From Streptomyces durmitorensis (GTDB lineage: Bacteria; Actinomycetota; Actinomycetes; Streptomycetales; Streptomycetaceae), in NCBI RefSeq assembly GCF_023498005.1, contig NZ_CP097289.1, forward strand, positions 6,696,001 to 6,760,000: DNA of 64,000 nt. The letters run 5' to 3'. The notes under the pieces are model-generated. The model saw only the letters and a list, made by a program, of their open reading frames with translations, ran no database searches and was not told the origin of the DNA. Both the position numbers and the translations under genes were made by a program. Numbering within the stretch: the stretch's first letter is position 1; each line of letters starts with the position of its first letter. Shown here in pieces: positions 42,413 to 46,913 of this stretch.

Positions 42413-43483
42413 GTGTCCTCCACAGCCCGTCGTGTACGTATATCCGGCTTTCTCGCCACAGCCCTGGCCCTCACCCTGAGCGCCTGCGGCTCGCCGGGCG
42501 GCTCCTCGGACTCCGCCGGCTCCTCGGATTCCTCGGCCGAGAAGGCCGGTGGCTACCCGCTCACCCTCACCTCCTGCGGCAAGAAGGCGGAGATCAAGGC
42601 GCCGCCGCAGCGGGCGGTCTCCCTCGATCAGGGCTCCACCGAGATCCTGCTCTCGCTCGGCCTCGCGGACCGCATGGCAGGCACCGGCACCTGGACGGAC
42701 CCGGTTCTGGGGGGCCTGGAGAAGGACAACGCCAAGGTCGAGCGGCTCGCCGACAGCTACCCCTCCTTCGAGAAGGTCCTCGCCGAGGAACCGGACTTCG
42801 TCACCGCCTCCTTCCTGGCGACGGTCAGCAAGGGCGGCGTCGCCGACCGCGCCAAGTTCGCCGAACTCGGCGTACCCGCCTATGTCTCGCCCTCCGACTG
42901 CGCGGGCAAGGACAACAGCGGCGACGGCGACGGCCGCCGCGACAAGACGCTGACCATGGACACGGTGTACGGCGAGATACGGGACCTGGCCGAGGCCTTC
43001 GGGGTCGAGAAGCGCGGCGAACGCCTGATCACGGAGCTCAAGGGCCGGGTGGCGAAGGCCAAGAAGACCATCAAGGTGAGTGAGGCGTCCGACACGACGC
43101 TCCTCTACTGGTTCGCCAACTCCGACGCGCCCTACATGGCGGGCTGCTGCGGCGCGCCGGGCATCATCACCCGCGAACTGGGCGTGAAGAACGTCTTCGA
43201 CGACACCCGCGAGGAGTGGCCCCAGATCAACTGGGAGACGGTGGCCGACCGCGACCCGGACGTCCTGGTCATCGGCGACCTCACGCGCAAGTCGCAGACG
43301 GCCGAGAGCGCGAAGAAGAAGATCGAGTTCCTGGAGTCCAACCCGGTCACCAAGAACCTGACCGCCGTGAAGAAGAAGCGGTACGTGCTCCTGAGCGGCC
43401 AGGCCATGAACCCGACGATCCGCACGGTGGACGGCGTGGAGCAAGTCGCCGACGCCTTGCGCGAGTTCGGGCTCGCCAAGTGA
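42413..43483 (+). CDS. Cobalamin/iron-type ABC substrate-binding lipoprotein
   Basis: The 356-residue product starts at GTG 42413 after AAGGGA. A lipobox LSAC with Cys25 follows the signal segment, then a Ser/Gly linker. The binding domain has AVSLDQGSTEILLSLGLADR, LAEEPDFVTASFLATV, and GVKNVFDDTREEWPQINWET near the end. It has an unusual PYMAGCCGAPG with two adjacent cysteines. The riboswitch in front points to cobalamin as the ligand. It is the first gene of a three-gene operon. Confidence 0.92.
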   Translation: MSSTARRVRISGFLATALALTLSACGSPGGSSDSAGSSDSSAEKAGGYPLTLTSCGKKAEIKAPPQRAVSLDQGSTEILLSLGLADRMAGTGTWTDPVLGGLEKDNAKVERLADSYPSFEKVLAEEPDFVTASFLATVSKGGVADRAKFAELGVPAYVSPSDCAGKDNSGDGDGRRDKTLTMDTVYGEIRDLAEAFGVEKRGERLITELKGRVAKAKKTIKVSEASDTTLLYWFANSDAPYMAGCCGAPGIITRELGVKNVFDDTREEWPQINWETVADRDPDVLVIGDLTRKSQTAESAKKKIEFLESNPVTKNLTAVKKKRYVLLSGQAMNPTIRTVDGVEQVADALREFGLAK

Positions 43484-44511
43484 CGGGAGCCCTCACGGGC
43501 GGCCTACGGCAGACCCTGCTCTGGACGGCCGGCGTCGCCGCCCTCGCCCTCTCCGTGGCGGTGGCCGTCACCATCGGCCCCGCGGACATCTCCGTACCGG
43601 ACGTGTGGTCGGCGGTGGCTGCGCACCTCGGCTGGGGCGAGGCCACGCTCACGCCCATCCGGGACGGCATCGTCTGGAACCTGCGCATGCCGCGCACGCT
43701 CCTCGCGGCGGTCTGCGGCGCCGGCCTCGCGGTCTGCGGAACGGTCCTCCAGTCCCTCCTGCGCAACCCGCTCGCCGACCCCTTCGTGCTCGGTGTCTCC
43801 TCGGGGGCTTCCACGGGCGCCGTCGCGATCGTCGTCCTGGGGGTCGGCGGGGGAGTGGTGTCGATCTCGGCGGGCGCCTTCGTGGGGGCCGTGTTCTCCT
43901 TCGCCCTCGTCCTGCTGCTCAGCCACACCCTGGGCGGGAGCGCCGACCGGCTGGTCCTGTCCGGGGTGGCGGCGATGCAGCTCTTCTCCGCGCTCACCTC
44001 GTTCGTGATTCTCACGGCGGGCGACGCGGAGACGACGCGCGGCGTCCTGTTCTGGCTGCTCGGCTCGTTGAGCGGGGTGGGCTGGACGGACGTGTGGATG
44101 TGCGGGGCGGTGCTCCTCGTGTCCCTCGCCATCTGCCTGGCGCACGCCCGCACCCTGGACGCGTTCGTGTTCGGCCAGGACGCGGCGGCGACGCTGGGGG
44201 TCCGTGTCGCCCGTACCCGGCTGATCCTGCTCTCCGTCACGGCCCTGCTCACGGCGGCCCTGGTCAGCAGCGCGGGCGCCATCGGCTTCGTGGGCCTGGT
44301 CCTGCCGCACGCGGCCCGCGCCCTGGTCGGCTCCGGGCACGCGAGGCTGCTTCCGGTCACGGCGCTCGCGGGCGCGGTGTTCCTGGTGTGGGTGGACACG
44401 CTGGCCCGTACGGTCCTCGACCCGCAGGAGGTGCCGGTGGGTGTGGTGACGTCCCTGATCGGCGTCCCGGCGTTCGTCCTGGTCCTCTACCGCACCCGGA
44501 AGACGACATGA
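43480..44511 (+). CDS. FecCD/BtuC-family ABC permease
   Basis: The 343-residue product starts at GTG 43480, overlapping the previous stop as GTGA. About ten membrane helices are present. The family strings are RMPRTLLAAVCGAGLAVCGT, LLRNPLADPFVLGVSSGAST, and AGAIGFVGLVLPHAARALVG near the end. It should form the membrane channel with the ATPase encoded next. The start overlap shows translational coupling within the operon. Confidence 0.93.
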   Translation: MTGALTGGLRQTLLWTAGVAALALSVAVAVTIGPADISVPDVWSAVAAHLGWGEATLTPIRDGIVWNLRMPRTLLAAVCGAGLAVCGTVLQSLLRNPLADPFVLGVSSGASTGAVAIVVLGVGGGVVSISAGAFVGAVFSFALVLLLSHTLGGSADRLVLSGVAAMQLFSALTSFVILTAGDAETTRGVLFWLLGSLSGVGWTDVWMCGAVLLVSLAICLAHARTLDAFVFGQDAAATLGVRVARTRLILLSVTALLTAALVSSAGAIGFVGLVLPHAARALVGSGHARLLPVTALAGAVFLVWVDTLARTVLDPQEVPVGVVTSLIGVPAFVLVLYRTRKTT

Positions 44512-45317
44512 CTTCACGCTCGGACAGCACGCACACTCCTGCCGAACCCGGCCTGCGCGCCGACCGGGTGACCAGAGAGGCCGGCGGCCGCCTCATCGTC
44601 GACGGAGTGACCCTGGCCCCGCCCCCCGGAGCCACGGTCGGCCTCCTCGGCCCGAACGGCTCGGGCAAGTCCACGCTCCTGCGCATCCTGGCGGGCGTCC
44701 TGGCCCCCGCATCGGGAGTGGTCACCCTGGACGGCCGACCGCTGCGGGACGTGGGCCGCCGCACGGTGGCACGCCGGGTGGCGGTGGTGGACCAGGACGC
44801 CACCACGCAGGTCGAGCTGTCGGTGGAGGAGGTCGTACGCCTGGGCCGCATCCCGCACCGCAGGGCGTGGTCGCCCGCCACGCCCCAGGACGACGAGGCG
44901 GTGCGCGAGGCCCTGACCCGCACCGGTCTCGCCGACCGGTCGGGCCAGTCCTGGCACACACTCTCCGGCGGTGAACGCCAACGGGTCCAGATAGCAAGGG
45001 CGTTGGCCCAGACCCCCCGGGAGCTCCTCCTGGACGAACCGACCAACCACCTGGACATCCAGCACCAGTTGGACCTCCTGTCCCTGGTGGCGGACCTCCC
45101 CCTGACGAGCGTCATCGCCCTGCACGACCTGAACCTGGCGGCGATGTTCTGCGACCACGTACTGGTCCTGCGCGAGGGAGTGGCGTACGCGGCGGGCACG
45201 CCGGGCGAGGTGATCACGGAGGAGCTGATCGCGAAGGTGTACGGGGTGAGGGCGGTGGTGACGACGGCGGACGACGGCCCGCAGCCGCGCCCGTCGATCC
45301 GCTTCCTACGCGCCTGA
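44508..45317 (+). CDS. ABC transporter ATPase (BtuD/FepC type)
   Basis: The 269-residue product starts at ATG 44508 in an ATGA overlap with the permease stop. It has Walker A GLLGPNGSGKSTLLRI, the Q-loop at VAVVDQDATTQVELS, signature HTLSGGERQRVQIARALAQ, Walker B LLLDEPTNHLDIQHQL, and the switch His in IALHDLNLAA. It powers the importer. No cobalamin-modifying genes follow. Confidence 0.95.
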   Translation: MTSRSDSTHTPAEPGLRADRVTREAGGRLIVDGVTLAPPPGATVGLLGPNGSGKSTLLRILAGVLAPASGVVTLDGRPLRDVGRRTVARRVAVVDQDATTQVELSVEEVVRLGRIPHRRAWSPATPQDDEAVREALTRTGLADRSGQSWHTLSGGERQRVQIARALAQTPRELLLDEPTNHLDIQHQLDLLSLVADLPLTSVIALHDLNLAAMFCDHVLVLREGVAYAAGTPGEVITEELIAKVYGVRAVVTTADDGPQPRPSIRFLRA

Positions 45318-45319
45318 GT

Positions 45320-46123
45320 TCATGCCAGACGCAGACGGTCGGCGAGACCGGCGGCGGCGAAGGCGGACACCAGCTCGTCCCGCCCCTCGGTGAAGTGGGC
45401 CCAGCTGTCGAAGTGGACGGGGACGACCCGGCGCGCCCCGAGGATCCTCGTGGCCTCGGCTGCCTGGGCGCTGTCGAGGACGATCGGCGCGCCGTCGAAC
45501 AGGACGGGGAAGCGGGGAGCACCGGCGAAGAGGACGGCGGTGTCCACCGGGCCGAACCGTGCGGCGGTCTCCTCGACCGCGCCGAGTGAGGCGTTGTCGC
45601 CGCTGACGTAGACCGTGGGCAGGCCGTCGCCGGTCAGGACGAAGCCGACGACCTCACCGGCGATCGGTTCGACGTCCTCGCGCCTGCCGGGACCGTGGAC
45701 GGCGGGCACGCCCGTCACGGTGACCTGTCCGCCGCCGGGCCTCTCCAGCTCGACGGACTCCCAGTCGCCGAGTCCCTTCACCTTGGTGCCCAGGCTCTCG
45801 CGCAGGCGGCGCCCGCCGCCGGGAGTGGTGAGGGTGAGCGGTATGCCGGCGAGCAGGGCCCGGCCCGAGGTGTCGAGGTTGTCGGGGTGTTCGTCGTGCG
45901 AGAGCAGGACCACGTCGACGGGGCCTAGGTCGTCGGGGGAGCCCGCGGCGGGCGCGGTCTTGGTGAGGGCGGGGCCGGCGGGGGCGGGGTAGTCGCCGGG
46001 TGCGTCGAAGGTGGGGTCGGTGAGGAATCTCAGACCGCCGTACTCGAAGAGGGCGGTCGGGCCGCCGAAGACGCGTACGGGGATCTGCTGGTCGGTCGTG
46101 CCGGTCGTGCCGGAAGCAGCCAT
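45320..46123 (-). CDS. MBL-fold metallo-hydrolase (UlaG-like)
   Basis: The 267-residue product, taken from ATG 46123, has the metallo-beta-lactamase fold: GGPTALFEYGGLRFLTDPTF, VDVVLLSHDEHPDNLD, AVHGPGRR, GLPTVYVSGDNASLGAVEE and RRVVPVHFDSWAHFTEGRDE. The metal motif is HDEHPDN rather than the strict HxHxDH, as in related family members. It is divergent from the CGNR regulator across a repeat array. It converges with the ABC ATPase gene, with two bases between the stops. Substrate unknown. Confidence 0.88.
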   Translation of the reverse strand: MAASGTTGTTDQQIPVRVFGGPTALFEYGGLRFLTDPTFDAPGDYPAPAGPALTKTAPAAGSPDDLGPVDVVLLSHDEHPDNLDTSGRALLAGIPLTLTTPGGGRRLRESLGTKVKGLGDWESVELERPGGGQVTVTGVPAVHGPGRREDVEPIAGEVVGFVLTGDGLPTVYVSGDNASLGAVEETAARFGPVDTAVLFAGAPRFPVLFDGAPIVLDSAQAAEATRILGARRVVPVHFDSWAHFTEGRDELVSAFAAAGLADRLRLA

Positions 46124-46138
46124 GAAAGAAACACACAC

Positions 46139-46280
46139 CTCACGGATGGGGACCTCACGAATGAGGCCTCACGAATGAGGGCCTCACGGATGGGGCCTCA
46201 CGGATGGGGCCTCACGGATGGGGACCTCACGGATAGGAGACTTTCTATCCGTGATGAACCGTAGCTGTTTCTCACGGATG
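46139..46280. repeat. Array of repeated half-operators
   Basis: Seven adjacent copies of a 14-15 base unit, CTCACGGATGGGGC or close variants (CTCACGAATGAGGC), run from 46139 to about 46241. An eighth CTCACGGATG stands alone at 46271-46280. The last array copy forms one arm of the palindrome described next. The array fills the divergent gap between the MBL and CGNR genes, which suggests cooperative binding of one regulator. Confidence 0.9.
46227..46254. promoter_or_regulatory. Palindromic operator at the end of the array
   Basis: TCACGGATAG (46227-46236) and CTATCCGTGA (46245-46254) are perfect inverse arms around GAGACTTT. The arm is the array unit, so the array is a row of half-sites feeding one full site. 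It lies 42 bases before the CGNR start. Confidence 0.85.
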
Positions 46281-46295
46281 AAGGCAAGGCGTACC

Positions 46296-46913
46296 ATGAG
46301 GCTCGTGAAGGAGACCGTAGAAACCGCGACCGCCGAACCGGCACCGCCGCCCGCGCCGGGCGCGGAGCAGTACGTGGCACTCGACTTTGCGAACAGCGCC
46401 CTCGCCCTGCCCGGCGGCCAGTTCACCGACCTCCTCGGCACCCCGGCGGACGCGAACCGGTGGCTTACCGAACGCGACCTGGCCCCGGCCGACGCGGGCC
46501 TCCAGGAGATGTGCACGGCACAGCTGCGGACCCTGCGGGAACAGATCAGGTCCCTCCTGGCAGCGCGGCTCGCGGGCTGCGCACCCCCGGCGAGCGCGCT
46601 GTCCGCCTTGAACGAAGCCCTGACCAGAGCGCCCGCGGCCTCCCTGCTGCACTGGGACCCCGCCCGCGGCCTGTACCGCGCGGCATCCCACCCCACGACC
46701 CAGATCGTCGAACACGCCCTGGCAGCGCTGGCCGCCGACACCGCGGACCTCCTGACGGCCCCGGAAGCGGACCGCCTCACGGCCTGCGGCTCCCCACCCT
46801 GCAACCGCTACTTGCTCCGCCACGGCCGCCGCCACTGGTGCTCGACCCGCTGCGGAGGCCGGGCCCGCGCGGCCCGCGCCTACGCACGACGCGCGCAGCC
46901 GAAGGCGGACTGA
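46296..46913 (+). CDS. CGNR-type zinc-finger regulator (ABATE domain)
   Basis: The 205-residue product has the ABATE-type N-terminal domain (YVALDFANSALALPGGQFTD) and a C-terminal zinc finger with Cys164, Cys169, Cys182 and Cys186, ending RRHWCSTRCGGRARAARAYA. The family motif CGNR is CGGR here. These proteins are stress-inducible regulators whose finger binds DNA. The start ATG 46296 fits the family; an in-frame GTG at 46305 is possible. The regulator probably binds the upstream half-site array and controls itself and the MBL gene. Confidence 0.87.
   Translation: MRLVKETVETATAEPAPPPAPGAEQYVALDFANSALALPGGQFTDLLGTPADANRWLTERDLAPADAGLQEMCTAQLRTLREQIRSLLAARLAGCAPPASALSALNEALTRAPAASLLHWDPARGLYRAASHPTTQIVEHALAALAADTADLLTAPEADRLTACGSPPCNRYLLRHGRRHWCSTRCGGRARAARAYARRAQPKAD

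Follow-up and report, generated by a model that had tools for sequence, protein, structure and literature searches.

Among ABATE-CGNR proteins, which carry the Pfam domains PF07336 and PF11706, the closest described system is Jann_2411, whose structure (3H0N) revealed the new ABATE fold and a treble-clef finger considered 'likely' to bind DNA (PMC2954205). According to the part of that paper available here, a dimer and a possible ligand were proposed for the protein, and its binding to DNA was predicted from the structure; in that same part no operator is given and the word 'promoter' is absent (PMC2954205). The finger of Jann_2411 reads CQNR, so that the family name is not to be taken strictly (PMC2954205), and it compares with CGGR in the regulator studied here and CGDR in the other loci read in which the regulator is partnered by an MBL-fold hydrolase gene. 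An earlier note on this DNA had stated that no CGNR operator of this kind was known, and none was found in the open-licence PMC literature either, although a subscription paper could exist.

The window, that is, the whole stretch of 64,000 nucleotides of Streptomyces durmitorensis that was analysed, contains a regulator with the same two domains as Jann_2411, for which 3h0n was the only sequence relative found in the PDB (E 1.5e-5). While no operator, target or sequence specificity was found for the ABATE-CGNR family in the literature searched, an operator and partner genes are proposed here from comparison of sequences.

One-component repressors of the LacI and TetR types are autoregulated and control a divergent target. 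The locus resembles these systems in that dyads lie over both putative divergent promoters, the regulator gene is adjacent and a putative ligand domain is present, but it differs from them in having a treble-clef finger fold instead of a helix-turn-helix, a gap of 16 bp between 7-bp half-sites, and two dyads about 45 bp apart. Arrays of half-sites or iterons are known from plasmid iterons and antitoxin operators, which the locus recalls in that a recognition element is repeated in tandem next to the gene for its presumed binder; here, however, the intact seven-copy array occurs in one of 123 loci.

Layout of the region between the MBL gene and the regulator gene

The features of the locus are as follows (window coordinates).

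45320..46123, minus strand: MBL-fold hydrolase gene, 267 aa from ATG 46123; Pfam Lactamase_B_2, E 4.5e-20
46139..46225, plus strand: six extra tandem half-sites in the MBL leader, without counterpart in L010 and L039
46226..46255, no strand assigned: dyad A-B, CTCACGG-N16-CCGTGAT; geometry conserved in relatives
46258..46263, minus strand: putative MBL -10, TACGGT; A-N3-TA at the matching place in 101/117 stacked loci
46271..46300, no strand assigned: dyad C-D, CTCACGG-N16-CCATGAG; spans the putative CGNR promoter
46282..46287, minus strand: putative MBL -35, TTGCCT, 18 bp from the -10; GCAA fixed in 106/117
46292..46297, plus strand: putative CGNR -10, TACCAT; overlaps the right arm of dyad C-D
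46305..46913, plus strand: ABATE-CGNR regulator gene from GTG 46305; ABATE E 5.6e-29, zf-CGNR E 1.8e-8

Seven forward, CTCACGGAT-like units with a pitch of 14-15 bp start at 46139, 46154, 46168, 46183, 46197, 46211 and 46226, in steps of 15, 14, 15, 14, 14 and 15 bp, and are recognised by TRF with a score of 146 (period 14, 6.7 copies, 90% matches). The nine-base half-site is exact in five of the seven, the remaining units differing by one base at most. Positions 46245-46254 are the inverted partner of the seventh unit, the two making up a perfect inverted repeat of 10 bp; a further forward copy, the eighth, occupies 46271-46280. Within the window, the array 14-mer at up to one mismatch is confined to the array, while at up to three mismatches its 21 matches against 17 expected are close to chance; CCTCACGGATG occurs 19 times in the 9.86-Mb genome, four of them inside the array. 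The recount agrees with the earlier note on the seven units of 14-15 bp, their coordinates and copy number, on the perfect 10-bp palindrome, on the eighth copy near the CGNR start and on the confinement of the unit, as a 14-mer at up to one mismatch, to this one place in the window.

The same note had taken the half-site array as the basic unit, which was not supported: the half-sites belong to inverted pairs, or dyads, with 16 bp between the two arms, and the two 30-bp dyads at 46226-46255 and 46271-46300 had been missed. Array unit 7 is the left arm of dyad A-B, whose right arm is the inverted copy, and the eighth copy is not solitary but forms the left arm of dyad C-D. The 9.86-Mb genome contains just two exact CTCAYGG-N16-CCRTGAG sites, each at the start of a CGNR gene: one is C-D itself, and the other belongs to a paralogue at 1259264. 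With one mismatch, 21 places were found in the whole genome compared with 10 for the reversed control, including A-B and a dyad at 1261172 ahead of a third, frameshifted copy. In this genome two further regulator-MBL copies lie side by side (L207, G000:C1:1256500-1263500), of which one has an intact CGDR regulator, a truncated MBL gene, a degraded A-B and an exact C-D, while in the other the regulator is frameshifted, the MBL gene is intact and both dyads contain mismatches.

Both domains of the regulator pass their Pfam cut-offs (ABATE, 101.8 bits against 24.4; zf-CGNR, 34.4 bits against 24). The MBL protein, which is likely encoded by a target gene of the regulator, shows weak sequence relatedness to the PDB entries for NAPE-PLD and SaxA, and the search for an NCBIfam name gave matches below threshold only. 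Judged from the translated open reading frames, the genes before the MBL gene (42413-45317) resemble an ABC uptake system of the iron-siderophore type, its ATPase matching PF00005.

To place the promoters, 117 of the 123 MBL loci were superimposed in a stack at dyad C-D, which revealed three fixed elements beyond the half-sites, and all promoter assignments made here are inferred from this conservation. In 98 of the 113 loci with a recognised element, an ATG or GTG (searched from 5 nt onward) follows a -10-like hexamer by exactly 7 nt, which is the spacing of a leaderless message, and the regulator start was therefore placed at GTG 46305; the regulator message is likely leaderless from this codon, with the in-frame ATG at 46296 as the alternative. 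An inverted-repeat site thus lies over the regulator's own putative promoter, since C-D spans TACCAT just before the start and its right arm, CCATGAG, overlaps this hexamer. On the minus strand of the stack, TTGC (GCAA, 106/117) and TANNNT (101/117, at one position) are 18 bp apart, and these elements would drive the MBL gene from about 46251.

Conservation of the dyads and their link to the regulator family

The closest named relatives found for the stretch are Streptomyces. Regulator relatives at E 1e-20 or better were found in 76 of 246 genus genomes, to which the best 80 of 257 named relatives from a species-genome collection were added; taking the best match of each, 170 loci were examined, of which 167 have a CGNR match and three have none, with 159 unique upstream regions. 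A divergent MBL gene lies within 800 bp in 123 of these 159 unique loci (68 of the 72 named ones), and the recurring intergenic order is a forward, an inverted and a forward half-site, followed by a fourth arm, CCATGAG, at the regulator start. A census of CTCAYGG/CCRTGAG pairs with up to one mismatch and spacers of 0 to 40 gave, in the 123 MBL loci, 198 pairs at N16, 36 at N15 and at most seven at any other value, while equal lengths within the regulator genes yielded nothing in the MBL loci and a single pair in the other 36. Calling dyads at up to two mismatches and a spacer of 15 or 16, at least one is present in 122 of the 123 unique loci with both genes and at least two in 114, mostly 44-46 bp apart from centre to centre. 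The sole MBL locus without a dyad (L241, in G069) has lost the intergenic region and the fronts of both genes. In this broken pair, residue 58 of the regulator is abutted by residue 162 of the MBL protein. Overall, the MBL loci have 248 dyads in their operator regions, 43.9 kb in total, compared with 15 in 645 kb of flanks of the 159 loci. All 14 genera represented, as assigned from record titles, have at least one locus with two dyads, including Geodermatophilus, Rhodococcus, Saccharopolyspora, Nonomuraea and Actinomadura. It had been suggested that the half-site belongs to the CGNR regulator and that copies should be sought upstream of its orthologs; it is indeed conserved there, in the form of dyads, and is nearly absent from gene bodies. 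These loci share ancestry and their counts are not independent events, and stronger evidence is provided by separated gene pairs, by a second branch of the family and by finds led by the motif.

Fourteen genomes were checked for an MBL orthologue, and in nine of them a regulator relative lacks an MBL neighbour. In eight of the nine (G001, G007, G049, G063, G097, G104, G207 and G243) an orthologue of 66-77% identity lies elsewhere, and in all eight it retains both dyads, which lends support to the regulatory half-site of the earlier note at the partner gene too. The fourth arm at these separated MBL genes keeps CGTGAG in 8/8 and reads TACCAT in none; a TANNNT hexamer remains within it in four (L269, L272, L273 and L274), where a promoter may thus persist and which weakens the case slightly, and the other four have kept the arm without any -10-like hexamer. 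Four of the eight separated regulators have C-D (L024, L034, L035 and L218) and four are without a dyad of their own (L013, L014, L015 and L017), so autoregulation does not hold throughout. In G046, the ninth genome, the regulator (L232) has no dyad, and the two MBL relatives, at about 52% identity, lack an operator-like pair. G217 has its regulator inverted beside an MBL gene that retains both dyads. Among seven less similar or partial MBL relatives (L275-L281, whole loci), L279 and L280 each have a single match with two mismatches and the others have no dyad. Further loci in which the regulator has no MBL gene beside it, and which lie outside the 14-genome check, include L062, L091, L100, L110, L244, L245 and L263.

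A search led by the motif alone, using TCACGGAT-N12-ATCCGTGA with up to one mismatch in the 246 genus genomes, gave matches in 72 genomes and none with the reversed pattern. Among the matches listed there are at least 75 dyad places, of which 41 are at an ABATE-CGNR gene or an MBL partner and 34 are off the system, the latter comprising 19 occurrences of one recurrent sequence and 15 others. Exact dyads among the matches listed number 17, and 16 of these belong to the regulator-MBL system or to another ABATE-CGNR gene, the sole exception being in G156. In the 4-kb locus around this last dyad (L209, position 1836) no ABATE-CGNR or MBL gene was found. The recurrent one-mismatch dyad, present in 19 genomes, was considered as an operator and rejected: when ten occurrences were compared, one of them matched each of the other nine at 91-94% along about 400 bases, and it therefore represents conserved sequence rather than an operator. 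For the 15 other places, a profile search for an ABATE-CGNR frame found none in 13 loci (L134-L136, L141, L155, L156, L209 and L438-L443) and one in a fourteenth, L437, the fifteenth (G007:C1:4016084) being outside this search. The dyad search also reached distant ABATE-CGNR genes that the protein search had missed (L210, L436 and L153), and in L210 and L436 both Pfam domains are above cut-off. In G230, two dyads 38 bp apart precede the distant gene of L436; in L437 of the same genome a one-mismatch dyad overlaps the putative start of an alpha/beta hydrolase gene, which is a possible further target, and the ABATE-CGNR frame lies further upstream. A phage origin was considered and not adopted; the exact dyad occurs in six stretches of a viral contig collection, a number that may reflect chance.

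The second branch consists of 13 loci (L249 and L251-L262) whose regulators are about 38-44% identical and have no MBL neighbour; they carry a dyad pair at the matching spacing, mostly with CTCACGGAGAA replacing CTCACGGATGA. All six second-branch loci inspected have a long divergent SufS-like ORF, and that of L249 belongs to the SufS family above cut-off. Further out, 7-N15..17-7 repeats numbered 20 against 7 in shuffles in a set of 52 CGNR loci (65 minus 13 in which the search pattern recognised no finger). In 135 loci outside the window clade (29 of the 167 loci having been dropped because the pattern found no finger, and the partial paralogue L176 kept), spacers of 15, 16 and 17 were found 10, 11 and 13 times against 6.7, 6.5 and 7.4, an excess like that of other spacers, and among 60 representatives the counts were 4, 6 and 9 against 2.7, 2.6 and 2.4, N17 standing out somewhat. 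A spacing rule for the whole family was considered but is not adopted, and the dyad geometry is claimed only for the window clade and the branches named here, within a family whose zf-CGNR domain is matched at E 1e-10 or better in 77 of 108 class genomes. An ABATE-CGNR gene of G261 (L331) has two dyads of another half-site, CTAATGC-N16/17-GCATTAG, which suggests a similar geometry with altered specificity.

The finger motif could be read in 120 of the 123 MBL loci and is CGDR in 119 and CGGR in one, that of the window, which is therefore without the literal CGNR motif; CGNR itself is found in 16 of the 17 readable among 18 loci without MBL at up to 50% identity, second branch included. The zinc-ligand cysteines C164, C169, C182 and C186 are invariant in 33 aligned sequences. 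The earlier note read CGGR correctly; the different specificity that it considered for this finger need not be invoked for the site, as CGDR relatives use the same half-site. Since the CGGR, CGDR and CGNR groups all use CTCACGG, core specificity is not set by the finger residue alone. Taken as a whole, the comparison of sequences establishes the site, its geometry and conservation, its co-occurrence with regulator and partner, and its survival when the two genes are apart.

Proposed operator mechanism and the place of the array

The two-dyad region is probably the operator of the adjacent ABATE-CGNR regulator. According to this proposal, a regulator dimer would bind the 30-bp dyad, with each zinc finger reading one CTCACGG(AT) half-site; the two lie in inverted orientation with 16 bp, or in some cases 15 bp, between them. 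Dyad C-D would cover the leaderless promoter of the regulator together with the -35 region of the divergent MBL gene, and dyad A-B, 45 bp off, would cover the MBL transcription start, so that occupancy would shut both promoters until a ligand of the ABATE domain frees the protein. In this lineage, half-site A and the spacer bases that follow would have been duplicated in tandem to give six additional forward half-sites, which may provide weak added binding, titrate the regulator or represent tolerated slippage. The cooperative, copy-number-sensitive repression suggested in the earlier note is a hypothetical role of the array. Protein binding, repression as opposed to activation, the dimer stoichiometry, the promoters, ligand release and any role of the array are inferred components of this scheme, in which the CGNR protein is most likely a repressor that also controls itself.

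Regarding the array, the chances are about even that the two-dyad operator is real while the repeats are a neutral minisatellite that arose by slippage or unequal exchange in an MBL leader tolerant of insertions. When nine-base half-sites with up to one mismatch are counted, 90 of the 123 MBL loci have two in forward and one in inverted orientation, and the window locus, with eight forward and one inverted, is the maximum of all 123. The closest loci by regulator identity, L010 (86%) and L039 (83%), have the gene pair and one A half-site each, so the array is not conserved in the closest relatives, an outcome that the earlier note had named as refuting its reading. The A region of L039 reads CCTCACGGATGGGG once, identical to the array unit, and the array is therefore most simply explained as a tandem copy of this region, half-site A having expanded within the MBL leader in this lineage specifically. 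A neutral origin also fits the presence, in certain other intergenic regions (for example, L032 and L217), of tandem repeats with different periods, as does the 14-15 bp pitch, which by simple arithmetic rotates successive sites around the helix. Against neutrality, the nine-base half-site has been kept within one base in all seven units and exactly in five, and a second species, S. spongiae (L042), has multiplied the corresponding region at an equal period of 14 bp, although its array is degraded and counts in favour of a neutral origin as well, while L043, next in number, has four forward half-sites; these two and the intact seven-copy array are single cases among the 123 loci. A third complete dyad is found on the MBL side in L048, L050 and L051, and on the regulator side in a group including L018, L023, L027 and L058. 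Across the genus, a tandem half-site pattern occurs in 24 of 246 genomes, several cases being 7-bp overlaps, and among the tandem places listed, the window array aside, none coincides with a CGNR match. A functional interpretation, which we regard as unlikely, is that the change of the finger from CGDR to CGGR weakened or shifted its grip and that the operator compensated by a sevenfold outer half-site, gaining avidity from weak sites, or that the array insulates or titrates between paralogues. The compensation rests on the single coincidence of the CGGR finger and the seven-copy array in one protein and locus; the two other copies of the system in this genome use related dyads, one of them with an intact CGDR regulator. 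If true, the interpretation would provide an example from nature in which a zinc-finger regulator and its operator have evolved through copy number.

As for the direction of control, it is unlikely that the CGNR protein activates the MBL gene or is a dual regulator. The putative MBL -35 region is overlapped by dyad C-D, which also extends just upstream of it, a position that activators also use, yet A-B at the putative MBL transcription start and C-D on the regulator's putative -10 are both placed where a bound protein would block polymerase. That the half-sites belong to another regulator controlling the gene pair appears quite improbable: the link between protein and site is drawn from sequence here, but 16 of the 17 listed exact dyads accompany an ABATE-CGNR gene or a separated MBL partner, and one ABATE-CGNR subfamily was reached by the motif alone. 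It is very improbable that the repeats exert their effect within the MBL leader RNA, through structure or through ribosome-binding-like motifs (GTGAGG), rather than as protein sites on DNA. Half-site A does look, on inspection, like a ribosome-binding site on the MBL strand, and the 146-nt leader segment that includes the array (46106-46251, minus strand) folds more stably than shuffles (z -3.31), probably as a by-product of the repeats. Good folding, however, leaves the conserved parts unexplained, and an action in the leader was rejected on this ground: dyad C-D lies upstream of the putative MBL transcription start, some regulator genes that have no MBL neighbour carry dyads too, as do loci with sufS-like genes, and the leaders of close relatives are short and without arrays.

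With repression by the ABATE-CGNR protein as the preferred reading, the significance of the locus extends to a family of proteins that is widespread, yet for which no operator was found in the literature searched and DNA binding is only predicted. Genes of three kinds accompany the site, encoding an MBL hydrolase, a cysteine desulfurase of the SufS type and, as a possibility, an alpha/beta hydrolase. With its graded copies, the natural array is a ready dose series on the effect of extra half-sites, and the two-dyad operator makes the DNA binding, targets, specificity residues and ligand of these regulators testable with short DNA probes.
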